DNA from: a virus
Virus record (IMG/VR): IMGVR_UViG_3300020477_000122
Location: 1 to 24,905 of that record
Reading direction: 5' to 3' (one strand)
DNA length: 24,905 nt
A program made the translations under genes and the position numbers. Of this stretch, positions 2,351 to 23,090 are shown in pieces. The notes beneath the pieces are model-generated. The model ran no database searches and was not told the origin of the DNA. It saw only the letters and a list, made by a program, of their open reading frames with translations. Position 1 is the stretch's first letter; each line of letters begins with the position of its first letter.

Positions 2351-3076
2351 ATGAAAAAAACTAAAAAAACCAAAAAAACCAAAACAATCTCAAAACGGTT
2401 TAAACTACTAGCAATAGGCGGCGACCCGAAAACGAGAAAAGGACAAAAAAAGGGATGGTTAACTGCAATTCTTTACCTTGTCCCCGCTGGTCAATTAGGA
2501 ACAAAGAATCTTTGCGCCAGCGCTTCGGACGGTTGCGCGGAAAGTTGCTTGTTTCAACAAGGTCGCGGAAAGATGAATTCCGTACAACAAGCGCGACTAA
2601 GGAAGACTTTGTTCTTTCAAGACGACCGCAACGGTTTCCTTGATCAAGTGAAAGAGGACGTTTCCAAGGCAATCGAGTGGACAAAGTCAAAAGGTTACAA
2701 ACTAGCAATTCGTCTTAATGGAACAAGTGACGTTTGCTTTGAAAGATTCGACCTAATGGAAACCTTTCCAAGCATTCCTTGGTACGATTATACAAAGCAT
2801 TCTTTCCGCTTTCATTCCAAGTGGAAACTGCCAAGCAATTACCATTTAACGTTCAGTCAAAGCGAAGCGAATCACAGCGAAGCGAAACGCCTTGCGAAAC
2901 GTGGCGAGAACGTCGCGATAGTCTTCCGCCACAAGTTGCCGAAAAAGTGGTACGGTCGAACCGTAATCAATGGAGATGAAAACGACCTTCGCTTTCTAGA
3001 TTCGAAAGGATGCGTTGTTGGATTGCTTGCAAAGGGAAGCGCCAAGAAAGACCAAACTGGATTCGTCATCAACTAA
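2351..3076 (+). CDS. GP88-family phage protein, 241 aa
   Basis: I recognise the phage 'gene product 88' family: GGDPKT (23-28), KGWLTAILYL (34-43), a cysteine cluster C55-x6-C62-x3-C66, GRGKMNSVQQAR (71-82), RLNGTSD (121-127), YDYTK (145-149), YHLTFSQSEAN (164-174), NVAIVF (187-192), INGDENDLRFLD (206-217) and a final GLLAKGSAKKD. The family occurs in many phages and its biochemical role is, to my knowledge, unknown. The series of short strands ending in polar residues (LNGTSD, YDYTK, LTFSQSE) suggests a TIM-barrel-like fold, and three clustered cysteines could hold a metal or Fe-S centre; both are my inference. The N-terminus carries a Lys/Thr tract (KKTKKTKKTK), possibly nucleic-acid binding. 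The start at 2351 follows the previous stop by one base. It is encoded against the direction of every late gene. Confidence 0.88.
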   Translation: MKKTKKTKKTKTISKRFKLLAIGGDPKTRKGQKKGWLTAILYLVPAGQLGTKNLCASASDGCAESCLFQQGRGKMNSVQQARLRKTLFFQDDRNGFLDQVKEDVSKAIEWTKSKGYKLAIRLNGTSDVCFERFDLMETFPSIPWYDYTKHSFRFHSKWKLPSNYHLTFSQSEANHSEAKRLAKRGENVAIVFRHKLPKKWYGRTVINGDENDLRFLDSKGCVVGLLAKGSAKKDQTGFVIN

Positions 3077-5959: not shown

Positions 5960-6053
5960 TGGTGAATACCGTTTAAAGGGGCGAGAAGGTGTCTAGAAGG
6001 CGTTGCAGGGGCGTTATGGGTCTCTTCTATCACGGAAGGAGTTGCAAAGCTTT

Positions 6054-6305
6054 TTAAGAGGGTGCTTGACTGATTGCTTGTTTCACTTCGTCGGGGTCGT
6101 CGAAGGGAAGCATACGGGCGAGGTCGCCCAAAGGAGTACCCGATTCCGACATGGAGACCACGTCGTTGTCCTTGAGAAGCTGTCTCGCTCCGTTCAAGAG
6201 GGCGGCGTTGTATTCTCCGGTTTCCCTCATCTCCTCTATGGAGTCCTTGTAGGTGTTGGTAAGGAGAATTTGCAGTTCTTCGAGTTTCTCTCTTTTTGTT
6301 TTCAT
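6054..6305 (-). CDS. Small terminase subunit (T7 gp18-like), 83 aa
   Basis: The 83-residue protein (MKTKREKLEELQILLTNTYK...) is helical with an acidic C-terminal half. Its length and its position directly before the large terminase match T7 gp18 (DNA maturase A), and the N-terminal pattern with KLEELQxLLTxTY and a later ALLNGARQLLKDN is typical of small terminases of T7-like phages. It recognises phage DNA and regulates the large subunit. The ATG overlaps the upstream stop as ATGA, so translation is coupled with the membrane/coiled-coil gene before it. An overlapping 124-codon frame in another register is a shadow. Confidence 0.85.
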   Translation of the reverse strand: MKTKREKLEELQILLTNTYKDSIEEMRETGEYNAALLNGARQLLKDNDVVSMSESGTPLGDLARMLPFDDPDEVKQAISQAPS

Positions 6306-6568
6306 CTACGGTAATCCCTTGTTCCCACAACCAGTTCGAGAAGCCTGTCCAACTTGTCGTTCATCGCTTCGAGTTTAGCTTCCAAACCCGCCATTCTTTT
6401 TTCCACGGAGATATCTCGTTCATGTTGGGCGGCCAGTTCCACCTCTATTTTGGTGAGACGCGCTTCGTCCTTGTCGAGTCTATCGGAAAACTTCTTTCCC
6501 AACCAAGCGAACACACCCAAGGCCACCGCCAGTATGGTGTCGAAAAAATGAGATATTTGTTCTTCCAC
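6302..6568 (-). CDS. Membrane-anchored coiled-coil protein, holin or inner-membrane spanin candidate, 88 aa
   Basis: The product starts with a hydrophobic helix (about residues 8-25, FFDTILAVALGVFAWLG) followed by a basic stop and a long charged coiled coil (about 30-80, DEARLTKIEVELAAQHER...). The start codon is GTG at 6568, one base after the upstream stop TAA. The position between tail genes and the small terminase is that of T7 gene 17.5 (holin), with T7 gene 18.5 (i-spanin) also nearby in T7. The topology, one N-terminal membrane helix and a periplasmic or cytoplasmic coil, fits an i-spanin or a small holin-like protein. No sequence match that I can name decides between them. Confidence 0.7.
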   Translation of the reverse strand: MEEQISHFFDTILAVALGVFAWLGKKFSDRLDKDEARLTKIEVELAAQHERDISVEKRMAGLEAKLEAMNDKLDRLLELVVGTRDYRR

Positions 6569-9008: not shown

Positions 9009-12000
9009 TTACTCGTCTCCCAACTCAGGGTTTCCCGCAGGTGCTTTGTCACCAACGCCGGGAACGTGTTTCAAAAGAGGAAGCTGGTAAGGCGCTGGCG
9101 GGTTTTCTTTCTCAAGGAATTTCTCAAGAGGCGAACCAGGTTCTTCAACTTCTTCCGATTCGCCGTATTCAAAATGTTCTTGGCGGATTTCGGTGTCTTC
9201 TAAAATCTCCAACAAGATTTGCCTTCCTTCCGTTCCCCACTCTTCTTCCAGTATTTGTTCCCAAGCCGCTTGCCTGTAATCAGATAGAACGCGGTTTGCC
9301 GCCTTAATGCGAGGGTCCTTTAAATCGACTCCCGTCGGAAGTTTTCCCTTTTTTATTTTAATATCAGAATATTCACTAAACGAAAGGCTATCGACCAACG
9401 CCTGTTTCACGTTGAGTCCATCAAGTGTAATGGTTGAGTAAACTTGTTGCCAACGGTCGTAAGCGTCTTGTCCGTCCGCTTTCCTTATCGTTCTCAAATC
9501 CACACCGTTTTTAATGGGGTCTGCAAAGTGAAATTCCCCGTCCAGTTCTATTAGAATCGCCCAAGCCGCGTGCCTTACTTCTTTCGCATCGTTTAAATCA
9601 ACGTCTGAAACGTCGATGCTTCTTCTGCCGGCCGCGTCCACCTTGTAGTATTTATTAAGATCGGCGCGTTGACGGGTGGTTTTGATGGGGTTTATCCACG
9701 AAGTGACCTTCCCCCATTTCGATTCCCTGTCGAAATCACGAGGATGGGACTGTACGATGTCTCCGAAAGCGTCTCTGTAACCAGGGACGTTCCGCGATAT
9801 ACCCGCTAACCTCTTCGCCCAAATCTGCATAATCTCATCACCCCTTCTTCTTTCGTCGTCGGTAGCCATAGCTATCGCGTTCAATCCCGAAGGAATAACA
9901 ATGGAAGAGAGTCCTTTAATTTTTCGTTCCCAAGCAGAACTGTTCTCGCTCTGTTCCGTCATTGCCGTTAGAACGTCGTTCATACTTTTATAGTAAGACT
10001 TGTTGGCGATGTTGTTTGAAACCGTTAACATAACTGTTTGTATAGCTAACATAGCTTCGTCTTTTTCCTCTTCGGTTCCGTGTTCCCAAATCTTTTTCGC
10101 GTCGCAAACCATACCCGCCACCGTGGCGAAAGGTTCGAGGTTCAAGTAACTTAAACCAATATCCAAACCTTCTTCGCTGGTGGGGTCTGTGAACCTTATT
10201 TCATAATCACCCAAACCCGTGGCAATTTGAAGATTTTCCCTTATCTTCCAGTTCTGTTCTTCTTTCCCTACGATTACACCTTCATCGTGTAGATACCAAA
10301 TCGCCGCTATCATGCCAGACCCCACGACCATGCGACCTTTCGCCCTAGCCATAATGATGGGGTCCGCGCTGTTCAAATCCTGCATCGTCTTCGCCCACAA
10401 CCCATTATAGTATTTTCCTATGACGGGAACGTCGCCAAGGACCGCCGTGTGACTAAGCGCTTCACGCATGATGTTTCTACCCGTCCGCATGAAAGGGAAA
10501 AGAATAGTCTGACCCAAGGGAGAAAGGTCTCTCAGTCCTGTCTCCATACTTTTCATCGCTTTTTCAATCTGGTTCATGTCGCTGAATTCCCCCAGCGCCT
10601 CTTGAAAAGCCATTTCCTTACTGGAGCGCAAGATGTATTCAGCGAATTGACTAGTGGATTTGTCCCAATTTTCCTTAACGTAGTTGTCGATGAATTCAGG
10701 ATAGTCCTTTACGGGAACCTTTAAGTCCCTCGCGGCCACGACCGCCTCTCTTCTTACGACGTCTTCGGTCTTTATTTTGTTTTCTTTGAAAATCTTCTCT
10801 ACGTAAGCTTTGTAATACTCGTCGAATTCCCCTACGTCTTCGTTCGCCCTCGACAGTTTTGTCCAATCATGGTGCGCCTTGGCAAACGCCATGGAATGCG
10901 CCAAACGGGTTTTAGCAAACCCATCTATGGCGGACAAGGTCCTCCCCGGTATGTCCATGAACGATCCCGCGTTCTCCAATACTTGTCCTAACTCTCCGGT
11001 AAGACCCGTGTTTTCCTTCGACAAAGCGCTGGTTCCAAGTCTTTCAAAGTGAGAGTCCAGGGAGGCGTCTCCCGACTTGAAAGCTTTTTTAGCTTCGTGC
11101 CATGCCAAACTATTGTAGACGCCGTAAACGCGGTTTGCCTTGTTGGTCATTACGTTCCAATGGAAAGTGGCGGCGTCTTCGAACTCCTGCTTCGTTTTTC
11201 CTCGTCGCGCCCAAGGAGCGGTTGCCATGTATTTTGCTCCTATATAACCAAGGAACGGGTGATAATACTGCATGGTGACGTTTCCTATCACCGCCTTGAT
11301 GTGGGTGAGGGGAGCGGATAACATACTGAAATACAGGTAATCGATTCCAACGTCCCTTATCTTTCCTACCACGGTAGGACTTCGGTGACCTTGCAACGCG
11401 CGTCCCGCCTTCGTGGATTTTTGAAAAGCTTGCTGTTGATCCATCAAAATCCTTTTAACCTCGGCGGTGTCGTCGGCTTGTTGCACCGCTTTTAAAATCC
11501 GCCTGATGGCTTGAAGTTCTCCCCATGTCTGAAGTTGCGCCTTCAACTGTTCAGGAGACAGTTCGTCCGCTCTCTTCAGGTTACGAAGTAAAGCGTCTTC
11601 CGTGGCTTTCTCCACTTCCTCGAACTGTACTTCGGTGACGTCTTTGACGAATTTACGCATAGCCAACAAGCGTCCTGAAGCGGTTCCCACTCTTTTCCAC
11701 TCCATCATAAGAGGAATGGTTCTGGAAATCGCCAACATATGGTCGTTCAACACCTTGGGGTCGGCTAAATCGACGTCAACGTCTTGAAGGCGTTTAGTAA
11801 GTAAGGTAAAAGCGTCGTCTATAAGGGCGGCTGTTCCACCCATCCTGAGAAGACTACCCTCGATGGCGTCCGCCAACTCGGCTGTTTCCGCAGTCAAACG
11901 ACCGTTTACAAGTAAATCGATGGAGGTGGCTTCCTCGGCGCCTAAAGTTTTCTTTACCCGCTCCCTTACGTTGGCGATAAACTCTTCCTTACTTAAGGTT

Positions 12001-14531
12001 CCCGCGTCCAACTCTTTCTTGAGGTGGTCTTGCAAGACGTTTATAAGACGCTGCACGTCGGGGTCGTTGGACAATACGTCGGGATTGATGGCGTCGTCCG
12101 GTGATCTTTCCCTCGCTCCTCCACCCTCTAAAAAGTCGTCGGCAACTTCCTTGGCCTTCGCTTCGACGTCTCCGGTCACCAGCGTGGACTCCGCCGCATC
12201 GACTTTAGGCGCACCCAATCCCGCTCGCTGTCCCTGCCTAAGTTGTCGCTGTACTTCAGGGGAAAAATCCGACAAAGGAACGCCTTCGGGTTTTATTCCC
12301 TCAAGACTTTCCAATACTTCGGGAGGAAAGGCTTCGTCGGTCAAACCGTCTAAATCAAAACCCTTTGCGTAGACCCTGTCTCCCTCGATGATCAACCCCA
12401 CGTTCTTACCCCCTGTGTCGTTCTCCAAGAGACCGCGCTCGAAGAGAGGGTTTTCCAGCCGAAGCTTTTCAAGAAGGTCGGCGTCCGTACCCGAAACGTC
12501 CTTCAACCGACTCATTTCAGTTATAGGTTGTTGAATAGCCGCCGTGGTTATTAGGTTGCCGTCGGCGTCTTTTACTTCCCTAAAAGCCGTAGGTATGAGT
12601 AAGTCGGGATTGGAAGCGTTATATATTCTAGCGTTTTCAGGTCCTGTGTTGTCTAGAATTTTATAGAACTCACCCGTTTCTTTGTTTTTCCAAACCTTCG
12701 CTACTCCGCTTCTCCAAAACTGCATCGTGCCAGAGGCCGTTCCGAAAATTTCATCGCCCAAAGCATCGAGTTCGGGTTTTGGTTTCAAACCTGAATCAGG
12801 CGTGGCATTTGACTCCACCCCTTCCAGCGCCTTGTTAACACGCTGTTGTAACTCAGGAGAAGTTACAATGTCTTCAAGAGGGGCAACTCCTGAAGTTGTG
12901 GTCGCTTCCGGTATTTCAACTTCTATTTCCTTTTTCCCCGCAAGTTCCAAGGAAGCGTCTTCATGCGCCTTGGCTATGACCTCTTGTTCTTTTTCCAATA
13001 ATTCAATAGCGTCCGCGAGAATGTTTTGTTCTTCGGGATTTATCTTCCGTAAGTTGGATTCAGCTTCAGCCAACCACTCTTCGGCTTCCGCCAAAGCTTT
13101 CGGATTGTCTGCGGTCGCCTTGACCGCTTTTTTCGCGGCTATAACCTCTTGTCTCAAGGTTTGTTCAAGAATACGCGGTATGGAATCACCTGGTTTCGCG
13201 TTTGTCAGAGCGTACTCCAGCCTACCTAATCCGCCGCCCAACGTCATACCCATACCAAACGCCAACAATAAACTCTTTGCGTCAAATTCCTCTCGCCTTC
13301 CCGAAGTAAATTCCAACGTTTGACGAACACCTTCTTCAGCTGAAGCCATAAGCGCTCCTTCACCTGCGCGCAGCAAAGTGATAGCTGCCTTCGACATGTT
13401 CTTGGTGCTTACGAAACCGGGAACGGTGCCTAGGAGGGTGGCGGCAGCGTTCTGTTCCCATTCAAACCCTTCTTGGTGACCTAAGTTTACGCGTATGTCC
13501 TGCGCCCAAGCGTTTGATGCTGAAGAAACCGCTCCCAAACCCGAAAAGTAAGTTACCCGTGAACCCGGAGGTCCCGCTAAAAGCGGCGACGCCACAATTG
13601 CGAACGTGATAGGCGGAACGATTTCAACGGCTAAAGGCGCGCCGAATTCGTAAAGATATTCAAACGTACTTGCGTCGGGGAGTTCACCACCTAGGCCAGC
13701 CGCCGCATGGAACCGGCGGTTTGGGTAAAACTGGTGGAAAAGTCCCGATGAAAAAGGTACCGTTTCTTCCGTTATTTCGTCGTAGGACTGACCCGTATCG
13801 GTCAAAACCAATTCGTCGGCTGCCCTTTCTGGATCGGTTTCAGCGCTTCCTCCCCACCGCTTTTCAAAGAAAGGCACCAAACCCGACTTTTCAAAATCAT
13901 CCAAAGCGGCGTCGTCCATCTCGAACGGACGAGAAATGTAATAACCGTCACTAGAAACAAACTGTTCTCTCTCCCCCGGCTTCAGTTCCCTGAGACGCAT
14001 AAACAATTCTTTAATACGTTCTTTGACATAGGGATGGTTTTTATATCGATCTAATTGTGAGTGACTACCTATAGGCGCGTATCTCCCAGACATTGGAACC
14101 CCAAAGTCCTTTATATCCACTTCCTTTTTCGCTTGGTAATAAGCATCCTTCGCCTGTTGTTGTATAGCGACGTCTTGTTGGGAAGGAACATACCCCTCCC
14201 AATTTTCTTTTCCCACCTGCTGTTTGAAACCTCTCACGACCCGTTCCATGTTCATTTCAGAAACGAAGTGTCCCAATTTAGGGGCGCGTTTTTCCAACAC
14301 TTCTATAATGTCGGGTTCAATTCTGTTGTAACCACCCTCTTTCAAGGCGTTAAGAATCTCATGCCGCTTGACGGGGTCGGGTTCTCCGCCCATAGCGGTT
14401 CCCTCCTTCATGGCGTCGCCAAACAACTCCGCCGCGATCTCCTGCGTCAAGACCACGCTTTTAGGTACGGCGGTCTTTTTAGGTTCTTCCTTTGGTGTCA
14501 AAGTAGTTTCTTCTTCTTCTTCTTCGCTCAT
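9009..14531 (-). CDS. Giant internal virion / DNA-ejection protein (T7 gp16-position), 1840 aa
   Basis: By position (after gp14- and gp15-like genes, before the fibre) this is the gp16 equivalent, which is injected and helps build the DNA conduit across the envelope. At 1840 residues it is longer than T7 gp16 (1318). The N-terminus is charged (MSEEEEEETTLTPKEEPKK) and shows no lytic transglycosylase motif, unlike T7. Hydrophobic stretches occur near 312-350 (VPPITFAIVASPLLAGPP). Residues about 610-730 look kinase-like (see findings). The C-terminal half has the conserved feel of large phage polyvalent/ejection proteins: YLYFSMLSAPLTHIKAVIGN, then FPFMRTGRNIMREAL and GSGMIAAIWYL. The ATG overlaps the upstream stop by ATGA. 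Confidence 0.85.
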   Translation of the reverse strand: MSEEEEEETTLTPKEEPKKTAVPKSVVLTQEIAAELFGDAMKEGTAMGGEPDPVKRHEILNALKEGGYNRIEPDIIEVLEKRAPKLGHFVSEMNMERVVRGFKQQVGKENWEGYVPSQQDVAIQQQAKDAYYQAKKEVDIKDFGVPMSGRYAPIGSHSQLDRYKNHPYVKERIKELFMRLRELKPGEREQFVSSDGYYISRPFEMDDAALDDFEKSGLVPFFEKRWGGSAETDPERAADELVLTDTGQSYDEITEETVPFSSGLFHQFYPNRRFHAAAGLGGELPDASTFEYLYEFGAPLAVEIVPPITFAIVASPLLAGPPGSRVTYFSGLGAVSSASNAWAQDIRVNLGHQEGFEWEQNAAATLLGTVPGFVSTKNMSKAAITLLRAGEGALMASAEEGVRQTLEFTSGRREEFDAKSLLLAFGMGMTLGGGLGRLEYALTNAKPGDSIPRILEQTLRQEVIAAKKAVKATADNPKALAEAEEWLAEAESNLRKINPEEQNILADAIELLEKEQEVIAKAHEDASLELAGKKEIEVEIPEATTTSGVAPLEDIVTSPELQQRVNKALEGVESNATPDSGLKPKPELDALGDEIFGTASGTMQFWRSGVAKVWKNKETGEFYKILDNTGPENARIYNASNPDLLIPTAFREVKDADGNLITTAAIQQPITEMSRLKDVSGTDADLLEKLRLENPLFERGLLENDTGGKNVGLIIEGDRVYAKGFDLDGLTDEAFPPEVLESLEGIKPEGVPLSDFSPEVQRQLRQGQRAGLGAPKVDAAESTLVTGDVEAKAKEVADDFLEGGGARERSPDDAINPDVLSNDPDVQRLINVLQDHLKKELDAGTLSKEEFIANVRERVKKTLGAEEATSIDLLVNGRLTAETAELADAIEGSLLRMGGTAALIDDAFTLLTKRLQDVDVDLADPKVLNDHMLAISRTIPLMMEWKRVGTASGRLLAMRKFVKDVTEVQFEEVEKATEDALLRNLKRADELSPEQLKAQLQTWGELQAIRRILKAVQQADDTAEVKRILMDQQQAFQKSTKAGRALQGHRSPTVVGKIRDVGIDYLYFSMLSAPLTHIKAVIGNVTMQYYHPFLGYIGAKYMATAPWARRGKTKQEFEDAATFHWNVMTNKANRVYGVYNSLAWHEAKKAFKSGDASLDSHFERLGTSALSKENTGLTGELGQVLENAGSFMDIPGRTLSAIDGFAKTRLAHSMAFAKAHHDWTKLSRANEDVGEFDEYYKAYVEKIFKENKIKTEDVVRREAVVAARDLKVPVKDYPEFIDNYVKENWDKSTSQFAEYILRSSKEMAFQEALGEFSDMNQIEKAMKSMETGLRDLSPLGQTILFPFMRTGRNIMREALSHTAVLGDVPVIGKYYNGLWAKTMQDLNSADPIIMARAKGRMVVGSGMIAAIWYLHDEGVIVGKEEQNWKIRENLQIATGLGDYEIRFTDPTSEEGLDIGLSYLNLEPFATVAGMVCDAKKIWEHGTEEEKDEAMLAIQTVMLTVSNNIANKSYYKSMNDVLTAMTEQSENSSAWERKIKGLSSIVIPSGLNAIAMATDDERRRGDEIMQIWAKRLAGISRNVPGYRDAFGDIVQSHPRDFDRESKWGKVTSWINPIKTTRQRADLNKYYKVDAAGRRSIDVSDVDLNDAKEVRHAAWAILIELDGEFHFADPIKNGVDLRTIRKADGQDAYDRWQQVYSTITLDGLNVKQALVDSLSFSEYSDIKIKKGKLPTGVDLKDPRIKAANRVLSDYRQAAWEQILEEEWGTEGRQILLEILEDTEIRQEHFEYGESEEVEEPGSPLEKFLEKENPPAPYQLPLLKHVPGVGDKAPAGNPELGDE

Positions 14532-20561: not shown

Positions 20562-21632
20562 CTACTTGTGCAACTCAATAGCGCACTCAGGACGGAGAAC
20601 TCCGTGACCCATTGCGTATTTAGCGACGAACAAGGTACCTTGACGCTCGATTTGATACTCGGCCTCGGTAGCGAGGTCCATCAACTTCACGGTGCCAACG
20701 GCGCTCGGATGAGCGACGATGCCAACGGTGTTGGAGAAATCGCCATCGTAACCATCACCGGCAGCGAACAAGTCGTTGCTTGCGCCCTCGTCTCCCGAAG
20801 AAGTGCCTCCAGAGGAAGCCATGTTCGTCGATGGGACGTGGGTGGATTTGTAGATGCTGATTCCAGCCACTTGCGGGATAGTTCCCGAAGCGAGTGAACC
20901 CGAACCTCCGATGTCCTTGTTGGACGCCGAAGTAGCGACTACCAACGAACCCGAACCGCCTGTGATGAGTTTGTAGTACTCTTGCGGACGAAGAACGCAG
21001 AAGCGTCCGTCGGCGGGAACGTCGTTATCGTCGAGACCAGCGGCAGCCGTGAACAGCGCGGCGATGAGTTCCGGTCCCGTGGGATCGGTGGTGTCGGCGT
21101 CCGAACCAGCGCCGGCAGGTGCGCGAAGCAGGTTCTGCGAAACGTCCAACTCTCCGCCTGTCTTACCACCGGTTACACCGGGAGTTACAGTACGAGCGGC
21201 AGCGATGAACGACTTTGCGATGGCGCGGTCGAACCGATTGGCAAGCGCGCGACCCAACTCCGTGGAGTAGACGCTGCGAATGTCGTAGTGGTTCTTCAAC
21301 TCGTCGATGCTACTGAGGAACGTGGAAGCGAGAAGAACGTCGTCGATGGTGATGACTTGTTCATTCTTCTTCGGGTCACTCAGATAACTGTTACCAGCGT
21401 CCGCAATGTTAGCGCCGGGAGTGTGATAACTAGCGGTTGCAACTCCCGTGACGGGGAACGAAGCGCTTTTACCAGACTCGATGGTGCGTACCGTGTGTAG
21501 TGGTTTGAAGACGTTGTTCTCTTCAAACGTAGTTAATATTTCACCGGCAAATTTCTTCAGAAAGAGCGCGTTTGCGTCTCCCGCTGAATTAACTTGTCCG
21601 ACTCTAGATGGAGTTGTGTCTCCATTAGCCAT
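20562..21632 (-). CDS. Major capsid protein (T7 gp10A-like), 356 aa
   Basis: The HK97-fold shell protein. It opens with MANGDTTPSRVGQVNSAGDANALFLKKFAGEILTTFEENNV, followed by HTVRTIESGKSASFPVTG, the conserved opening of T7-like capsid proteins. Later come YDIRSVYSTELGRALANRFDRAIAK (spine helix), the A-domain segment DVPADGRFCVLRPQEYYKLI, and the C-terminal TEAEYQIERQGTLFVAKYAMGHGVLRPECAIEL. Length 356 (T7 gp10A is 345). AAGGATTAATC supplies a good ribosome-binding site before the ATG. It is preceded by 139 bp without a confident gene, containing a small palindrome (CTCGCGCACGAG near 21709), where a strong late promoter may lie. Confidence 0.96.
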   Translation of the reverse strand: MANGDTTPSRVGQVNSAGDANALFLKKFAGEILTTFEENNVFKPLHTVRTIESGKSASFPVTGVATASYHTPGANIADAGNSYLSDPKKNEQVITIDDVLLASTFLSSIDELKNHYDIRSVYSTELGRALANRFDRAIAKSFIAAARTVTPGVTGGKTGGELDVSQNLLRAPAGAGSDADTTDPTGPELIAALFTAAAGLDDNDVPADGRFCVLRPQEYYKLITGGSGSLVVATSASNKDIGGSGSLASGTIPQVAGISIYKSTHVPSTNMASSGGTSSGDEGASNDLFAAGDGYDGDFSNTVGIVAHPSAVGTVKLMDLATEAEYQIERQGTLFVAKYAMGHGVLRPECAIELHK

Positions 21633-21771: not shown

Positions 21772-21888
21772 TTACTTCAACGCTTCCAGTATAAAGAACA
21801 CGACGGTCGCTCCACCGATGACTACCAACGCTTTGCCGCGACGGTTCAGGGTGGAGAACCAATTAAGAAACTTTTTTAGAAATTCCAT
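21772..21888 (-). CDS. Small single-pass membrane protein, 38 aa
   Basis: An ATG at 21888 opens a 38-codon frame (MEFLKKFLNWFSTLN, then RRGK, then the hydrophobic run ALVVIGGATVVFFILEAL, ending in K). Positive residues before the single predicted helix (about 19-37) imply that the N-terminus stays in the cytoplasm. CTGGAAGAAA precedes the ATG and includes a GGAAG ribosome-binding site. The start overlaps the 3' end of the upstream lipoprotein-like gene by 26 bases in another frame. It could be a small holin-like or regulatory peptide acting with that neighbour. The short length limits confidence, but start site, overlap and topology agree. Confidence 0.6.
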   Translation of the reverse strand: MEFLKKFLNWFSTLNRRGKALVVIGGATVVFFILEALK

Positions 21889-22297
21889 TTTCTTCCAGTT
21901 GTTTACGGGTTTTCTTGTTTGAGAGATAGGTGAATACGAAGGGGAGTACCTGCACCGCTATTATAATAAATATACATATTTTAAGGAAACTCCAGACTTG
22001 ATCGACCACACCATCGAAGAATCCTGTCTCCCTAGCTTCTTCCAAACGCAGTTGAACAAGCTTCTCGACGTCGCCTTTACTATAAGCCTCAACCTCTTCC
22101 TTGAGGTTTTTGTTTTCCTTTACGACTTGAGCGCCTTTACCCGCGCCCCAACCTATCCCCGCTCCCACAGCCGCCCCCGGAACGCCTCCTACTACCGCAC
22201 CTCCCGCAGCGCCTGTGGTCGCGCCTACGACGGGGTAGAAGGAGGAAGTTGAACAGCCTCCTAAGAAGAGTAGTAAAGAGACGGCTAAACATTTCAT
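21863..22297 (-). CDS. Lipoprotein with C-terminal membrane helix: possible u-spanin, 144 aa
   Basis: Residues 1-15 (MKCLAVSLLLFLGGC) form a lipoprotein signal with lipobox LGGC, followed by STSSF; Ser at +2 favours the outer membrane. Residues about 24-55 are a glycine-zipper segment (VVGATTGAAGGAVVGG...). A charged coiled-coil-like linker follows (57-92), then a hydrophobic helix (about 103-125, FLKICIFIIIAVQVLPFVF) and a basic tail. An N-terminal lipid anchor plus a C-terminal inner-membrane helix is the architecture of unimolecular spanins such as T1 gp11, which fuse inner and outer membranes at lysis. It starts one base after the scaffold stop, an unusual place for a lysis gene. Alternatively it is a glycine-zipper envelope protein with another role. 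Confidence 0.7.
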   Translation of the reverse strand: MKCLAVSLLLFLGGCSTSSFYPVVGATTGAAGGAVVGGVPGAAVGAGIGWGAGKGAQVVKENKNLKEEVEAYSKGDVEKLVQLRLEEARETGFFDGVVDQVWSFLKICIFIIIAVQVLPFVFTYLSNKKTRKQLEENGISKKVS

Positions 22298-22298
22298 A

Positions 22299-23090
22299 TT
22301 AAAGGTTACTGACCGCCAACCTGCGGTCTATCATGGCGTGGTAGGATTTATCTCCCTCTTTGTAACGGGGGTCTTGCATCGCCCGACGCACTTCGTGCAT
22401 GGATTGGAAAGGAAGCGTACCCGTACCCGTTGTTTCTCCCGTGACGAGTTTAGGTCCCACGTTTCCGGTTTCCGTTTTGTAACGAGCGTAAAGACCGCTC
22501 ACGGCAAACTTGGCTTGATCGACAGTTCCCGTGGAAACCGCTTCGTTGAAAGTTTTCATTTCGTCGTCCGACAAGTTCTCTCCCGCCCACGCGGTCATGT
22601 CGTCGTAATTACCTTCCGCCGCTGATTTAATGGCTGCGGATTGGTTGTCTTGAAGAGCGACCTGTCCCGCCGCGAACGAATCAACCAACTCCTTGGAGAG
22701 ACCTATCTTGGCGAGAGATTCGTAAGTGTCGTTGGTCAACTCCCCTTTTTCAAAGAACTCTTGGGACGCTTCGCCTATAACGGTAGTCGTTGCGGATGGA
22801 TCCACCTCGTCCGTAGAGGTTTCTTCCGACCCGCCTAGCTTCTTTTCAAGGGCGGAGTAGGCTTTCGCCATATCTTCGGGGTTCTTGAATTTTTCAGGAA
22901 GCCACTCAGGACGCTCCTGGTCCCCTTCGGGCGCTTCTTCAGCTTCTACAGCCGGAGCGTTCTCCCCTTCAGGAACGTCCTGAACAACTTCCTCTCTCTT
23001 CGCCAACTCCTCTTCCCTCTTAGCCAACTCTTCGGGTTCCAGTTCGCTGTCTACCTTCTCGTTGATCTCAACTCTATGTAATTCGGCCAT
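22299..23090 (-). CDS. Capsid assembly scaffold (T7 gp9-like), 263 aa
   Basis: The protein is highly acidic and helical, lies between portal and capsid, and has the usual scaffold pattern: an acidic N-terminal part with a duplicated ELAKREE heptad-like repeat, RPEWLPEKFKNPEDMAKAYSALEKKLGG (a common motif in T7-like scaffolds), and a basic C-terminal helix (MHEVRRAMQDPRYKEGDKSYHAMIDRRLAV) that should contact the capsid protein. T7 gp9 is 307 residues. It directs procapsid assembly and leaves before or during packaging. AAGGAAACGA at 23095-23104 fixes the start. It is followed directly by the lipoprotein gene. Confidence 0.93.
   Translation of the reverse strand: MAELHRVEINEKVDSELEPEELAKREEELAKREEVVQDVPEGENAPAVEAEEAPEGDQERPEWLPEKFKNPEDMAKAYSALEKKLGGSEETSTDEVDPSATTTVIGEASQEFFEKGELTNDTYESLAKIGLSKELVDSFAAGQVALQDNQSAAIKSAAEGNYDDMTAWAGENLSDDEMKTFNEAVSTGTVDQAKFAVSGLYARYKTETGNVGPKLVTGETTGTGTLPFQSMHEVRRAMQDPRYKEGDKSYHAMIDRRLAVSNL

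Follow-up and report, generated by a model that had tools for sequence, protein, structure and literature searches.

The question raised by this locus is what two small overlapping genes, both encoding membrane-associated proteins, are doing between the scaffold and major capsid genes of a T7-like phage. The DNA analysed here (the window) is a virus fragment of 24,905 bases, positions 1 to 24,905 of IMGVR_UViG_3300020477_000122; since it is a fragment, it probably lacks much of the early region. A preliminary description had seen in the larger product, a 144-aa protein, the layout of a unimolecular spanin (u-spanin), with a lipobox, a C-terminal helix, a basic tail and an added glycine zipper, and had noted a 38-aa single-helix protein overlapping its 3' end. 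Following the analysis described below, we consider it likely that the 144-aa protein is a unimolecular spanin of a previously undescribed family and that the 38-aa protein is a lysis accessory. The sequence basis of this reading is formed by topology signals, conservation, purifying selection, co-occurrence, and the equivalence of the scaffold-capsid interval (the slot) among phages, from which we infer lipidation, sorting to the outer membrane, insertion of the zipper, membrane fusion, and the role of the partner.

Sequence features of the gene pair

One border of the slot is the gene for the scaffold protein (22299-23090, minus strand), which matches Phage_T7_Capsid (1.1e-9) and the head assembly profile phrog_1052 (4e-44); the other is the gene for the major capsid protein (20562-21632, minus strand; Gp10A-like, 5e-69). 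Further on from capsid and scaffold, T7 gp13/gp14-like genes were recognised by profile matches. The ORF for the 144-aa lipoprotein (21863-22297, minus strand) starts with an ATG at 22297, 1 nt further on from the scaffold stop codon (22299-22301), and its 3' end is overlapped by 26 nt by the ATG ORF for the 38-aa protein (21772-21888, minus strand), which has a basic N-terminus and a single helix. Elsewhere in the window, an 1840-aa protein in the position of T7 gp16 (9009-14531, minus strand) is without any Pfam match at E <=1, and a 241-aa ORF (2351-3076, plus strand), on the strand opposite to the late genes, contains a cysteine cluster (CASASDGCAESC).

The lipobox LGGC of the 144-aa protein (residues 12-15; 22253-22264, minus strand) provides Cys15 as the predicted lipidation site, with Ser next to it. 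When both strands of the entire window were scanned for lipoboxes, this protein was the single credible lipoprotein, and looser settings added only one implausible TTG ORF on the opposite strand. The glycine zipper occupies residues 23-56 (22130-22231, minus strand), and its Pfam matches are weak, scoring below the cut-offs (Gly-zipper_OmpA, 16.2 against 27 bits; Gly-zipper_Omp, 10.5 against 25). The periplasmic part, approximately 85 residues, is free of cysteine. The only strong internal hydrophobic segment, residues 104-122 (21932-21988, minus strand; mean hydropathy 2.59), forms the predicted C-terminal transmembrane helix and is followed by the basic tail; the assignment is supported by hydropathy, family conservation, and the structure model.

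The AlphaFold2 model of the 144-aa protein, built from 32 sequences, contains helices only (mean pLDDT 72.9, pTM 0.37, with pLDDT in the 50-76 range for most periplasmic residues) and is confident only in the C-terminal helix (93-143). A superposition on SlyB covers residues 15-64 (Z 4.6, rmsd 3.5 over 50 residues, 28% identity), and one on a subunit of a Legionella outer-membrane complex covers residues 10-62 (Z 6.1); both fall within the range of unrelated helical proteins, and we take them as consistent with the proposed reading, though not as proof of it. A PDB profile search with the lipoprotein family gave nothing significant, and the best match in a fold search of viral structures was a 171-aa protein (E 4e-3, TM 0.37).

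The likeness to SlyB, in which a glycine-zipper segment likewise comes after a lipidated N-terminus, brings up another possible function. The lipoprotein could be a superinfection-exclusion or envelope-modifying factor of the TraT or SlyB kind, assisted by the 38-aa protein, which would prevent other phages from adsorbing or their DNA from entering, or stabilise the envelope. Glycine zippers are indeed typical of bacterial outer-membrane lipoproteins, and 14 of the 32 family members give weak Gly-zipper_Omp matches; the SlyB superposition agrees with this. However, the linker and the C-terminal transmembrane helix of the phage protein are unmatched in SlyB, and such a conserved helix with a basic tail is unexpected in a pure outer-membrane lipoprotein. 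Moreover, the gene stands immediately behind the scaffold gene among late genes, in a slot common to other lipoprotein sets, one of which includes a profile-confirmed spanin (see below). We regard an envelope function as unlikely.

The lipoprotein family, its partner, and known spanins

An initial scan with the window protein retrieved one relative, L002, from a phage that is unrelated and has another capsid, where both proteins are present (~50% identity) and overlap in the same order as in the window. Profile searches of viral contigs yielded >100 loci related to the 144-aa lipoprotein, and the 103 loci with an assignable start gave 66 distinct full-length lipoproteins. The signal with the lipidation Cys, the zipper, the transmembrane helix, and the basic tail (charge +3 to +9) are kept in 66/66 of them; Asp at +2 and periplasmic Cys each occur in 0/66, and the periplasmic part measures 81-92 residues. 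In the alignment of 32 sequences, glycines 29, 33, 49, and 53 of the zipper are invariant, while C15, S16, P22, P39, G45, A46, and the A71..G75-D76-V77 motif are nearly so. Given this conservation in 66 homologues and a median pairwise dN/dS of 0.09 (T7-like members, overlap excluded), the features of the 144-aa protein are more than chance, and the u-spanin layout and the added zipper first noticed in a single sequence hold for the whole family. The family is known only from uncultured phages: tblastn with four members against 50,697 phage records produced zero matches at E limits of 1 or 10, and none was found in a scan of a bacterial and archaeal genome collection.

The search for the pair in related phages, suggested in the preliminary description, gave an equally regular picture for the partner. 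Single-transmembrane ORFs of 34-54 aa, some of which may use a shorter start, overlap the lipoprotein end in 67/67 assessable T7-like members, always between scaffold and capsid; two further members cut by contig ends were left out of this count. A profile of the T7-slot partners matches the window 38-aa protein with E 0.012, all shuffled controls being worse (best 0.13), and the partner dN/dS of 0.48, based on ~25 codons, indicates selection weaker than that on the lipoprotein. Both ORFs, then, are genuine and show the evolution expected of genes.

The pair is also found in unrelated phage types. Some relatives with other capsids have a partner of 31-39 aa, with a net charge of +3 to +4 ahead of the helix and a C-terminal tail of 1-4 residues. 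In certain other phages, with or without the small partner, the next gene after that for the lipoprotein encodes either a 45-60-aa single-transmembrane, holin-like protein or a protein with a transmembrane helix and a coiled coil; the holin label here is based on weak profile scores. Homology of these 45-60-aa neighbours to T7 gp17.5 was also considered and is unsupported (hhalign 1.2%). As to the 38-aa protein itself, we infer that it is probably a lysis accessory. With the N-terminus inside, a C-terminal helix, and an overlapping frame, it would most likely act as a small holin, an antiholin, or a spanin modulator.

In the phylogenetic tree, the other nine T7-slot sequences form a strongly supported clade, outside which the window lipoprotein falls, nearest to L002. 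The nearest relatives of the window pair, the partner likewise, are non-T7 loci (L002, L104). Separate acquisition of the window pair was considered but not adopted, since the tree requires just one change and is compatible with one common origin for the T7-slot members. In one 47-kb contig, IMGVR_UViG_3300048010_000183, the lipoprotein region is present twice (L149, L152), probably as a result of an over-long assembly of a phage genome.

The published u-spanin class comprises 58 proteins in 13 families, with a lipobox, a C-terminal transmembrane domain, and no periplasmic Cys in any of the 58; the T1-type u-spanins are beta-rich, and ~13% of the surveyed phage genomes, T7-like cyanophages included, have no recognisable spanin (PMC6139136). 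The 144-aa protein shares with T1 gp11 and the other u-spanins the lipobox, the C-terminal transmembrane helix with a short tail, and the absence of periplasmic cysteine; it is similar to T1 gp11 in length (144 against 133 aa), and both are proposed to bridge two membranes. In contrast to the beta-rich T1 gp11, it is predicted to be helical and has the glycine zipper; its gene lies between scaffold and capsid rather than after the endolysin gene, and it is accompanied by an overlapping small membrane partner. The hhalign probability between the two is 1.7%, over 14 columns around the lipobox only. Membership in the T1 gp11 family was rejected, as there is no sequence match; the model, of low overall confidence, also gives no indication of a beta-rich domain. 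Its direct match to the spanin profile phrog_3268 (E 0.024) is weak and at chance level. From these comparisons, in which T1 gp11 represented the 13 published families, we propose a u-spanin-like protein of a new family.

The Rz/Rz1 systems resemble the window locus in having a lipoprotein gene in the late region, and an Rz1-like gene of the phage LUZ100 occupies the same slot. However, they consist of two chains, whereas here the lipid anchor and the transmembrane helix belong to one chain; the 38-aa partner, with one transmembrane helix, is without a periplasmic domain and is no i-spanin. A literature search for a link between spanins and glycine zippers gave a single item, on phage P1 holins.

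Lysis functions elsewhere and the proposed mechanism

In T7, the spanin genes 18.5/18.7 lie between the terminase genes, unlike the slot of the window. At the corresponding place in the window, the small and large terminase genes are 94 nt apart (5960-6053), with the spanin gene absent, and in G001, a 38-kb relative with the same lipoprotein family in its slot that extends from RNA polymerase to terminase, the two terminase genes overlap. A conventional spanin pair elsewhere in the genome, named in the preliminary description as the finding that would speak against a single-protein spanin, was looked for in the window fragment and in the 38 kb of G001 and was not found; G001 has, on the gene strand, just a single further plausible lipobox ORF, of 50 aa, in the far-off early region. 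This ORF (L205:2885-3037) is cysteine-rich and gave no matches in a PHROG scan.

Immediately before the small terminase gene, in the position of the T7 holin 17.5, the window encodes an 88-aa protein with a transmembrane helix and a coiled coil (6302-6568, minus strand). Its conservation (47-68%) in relatives of two different slot types (A and C, described below) shows that it is not what the slot replaces. The 88-aa protein was also considered as a rival i-spanin and rejected, given this conservation in both types and no accompanying o-spanin frame.

The search for an endolysin with PF01510 (Amidase_2) and PF00959 (Phage_lysozyme) gave zero matches in seven related records, and none was recognised by PHROGs in ten G001 proteins. 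This result and the small single-transmembrane partner in every assessable T7-like member would be expected if the pair formed a lysis device of its own, either self-contained or dependent on an unknown factor that degrades the wall, instead of supplying a spanin that acts after a classical holin and endolysin. However, endolysins are diverse, and the search covered two families plus the ten proteins; in addition, separate holin-like proteins adjoin the lipoprotein in other phages. We consider such a device improbable, somewhat more so than an envelope function.

Under the preferred reading as a single-protein spanin, the 144-aa protein would receive a lipid at its N-terminus, which would then be sorted to the outer membrane, into the inner leaflet. 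Beside the lipid anchor, the glycine zipper may form a helical hairpin packed in or against this membrane, the linker, mainly helical, would span the periplasm, and the C-terminal helix would serve as the inner-membrane anchor with the basic tail in the cytoplasm. After degradation of the peptidoglycan, the protein would draw both membranes together and fuse or disrupt them, leading to virion release.

The scaffold-capsid slot in related phages

The scaffold-capsid interval was classified in 131 loci having both borders. A lipobox ORF is present in the slot in 116/131 relatives, compared with 3/1,385 control windows of the same length and on the same strand elsewhere on the same loci, and still in 57/72 when the loci with the window family (type A) are set aside; these figures represent enrichment and not probability, as the loci are phylogenetically non-independent and 64 T7-like loci came from searches with the lipoprotein itself. 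Several lysis-like gene sets without homology to one another alternate in the slot. Type A, the window lipoprotein family, is found in 59 loci; type B consists of a 60-aa LTPTPxDD protein (phrog_9685), a short ORF, and an overlapping lipoprotein; type C of a lipoprotein ORF lying within that of a 154-aa membrane protein, in a different frame; and type D of small basic proteins, in some cases with a secreted GAAYGHYQIH protein.

The slot is also represented in a cultured phage. LUZ100, a T7-like phage of Pseudomonas, was published as having no annotatable spanin (PMC10134795). Its slot contains a type-B gene followed by the lipoprotein gp38, annotated as hypothetical, which matches the Rz-like spanin profile PHROG 1275 at 1.6e-12, and gp38 is overlapped by an unannotated GTG ORF of 78 aa with a hydrophobic N-terminus (OP329100 20275-20511); the two together occupy L217:5276-5618, corresponding to OP329100 20275-20617. 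By this profile match, gp38 is an Rz1-like spanin, and independently of the window family the match identifies the slot as a site for spanins. The preliminary description had supposed that lysis genes inside the head-assembly cluster would be a new arrangement for T7-like phages. The presence of lysis-type genes in the cluster stands, but not its uniqueness, since LUZ100 and other relatives have spanin-like genes in the same slot.

The two phages with the most similar capsids (L003 and L004, 92-94% identical) nevertheless lack the window lipoprotein and have a different lipoprotein set, made up of other small genes, in its place, from which it follows that the content of the slot is exchangeable. 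The same observation bears on a possible role of the 144-aa protein in the head or virion, either as an assembly factor or as an ejected protein, as might be suggested by the gene position between scaffold and capsid and by a weak match to the tail-associated lysin profile phrog_1047 (1.6e-4). We judge this match to follow from the low-complexity zipper sequence; moreover, a conserved lipobox and transmembrane helix are not virion traits, and the lipoprotein also occurs beside unrelated capsid types. A virion role thus appears very improbable.

More tentatively, and with slightly more doubt than conviction, we propose a wider picture, in which helical glycine-zipper u-spanins accompanied by a tiny peptide are widespread, the zipper hairpin is the element for outer-membrane fusion, and the slot is an exchangeable spanin cassette. 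If so, outer-membrane disruption by a zipper hairpin would be a mode undescribed for T1-type u-spanins, and the cassette would have been overlooked even in LUZ100, an isolate reported as spanin-less. The present results point to the slot as a fixed place to seek spanins and to a large family missed by annotation; with one locus occupied in turn by different spanin-like designs, the slot also provides a natural experiment. A glycine-zipper u-spanin, if confirmed, would give a helical system for comparison with T1 gp11.

Several slot proteins of the other types were observed in addition. The secreted type D protein with the GAAYGHYQIH motif (164-165 aa; L040:7600-8094, L048:1948-2445), which has zero Pfam or PHROG matches, is possibly a wall-degrading enzyme. 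The LTPTPxDD protein of type B (60-72 aa, with one or two transmembrane helices), a possible holin, comes first in the slot of many T7-like phages (L004:144-329, L042:9125-9307, L097:3642-3830, L094:3655-3873). Finally, in type C, exemplified by L012 (9422-9886 and 9561-9836) and the same in most of L005-L036, the embedded lipoprotein has 87-106 aa, its frame is open across ~28 loci, and the whole looks like an embedded spanin-type arrangement.
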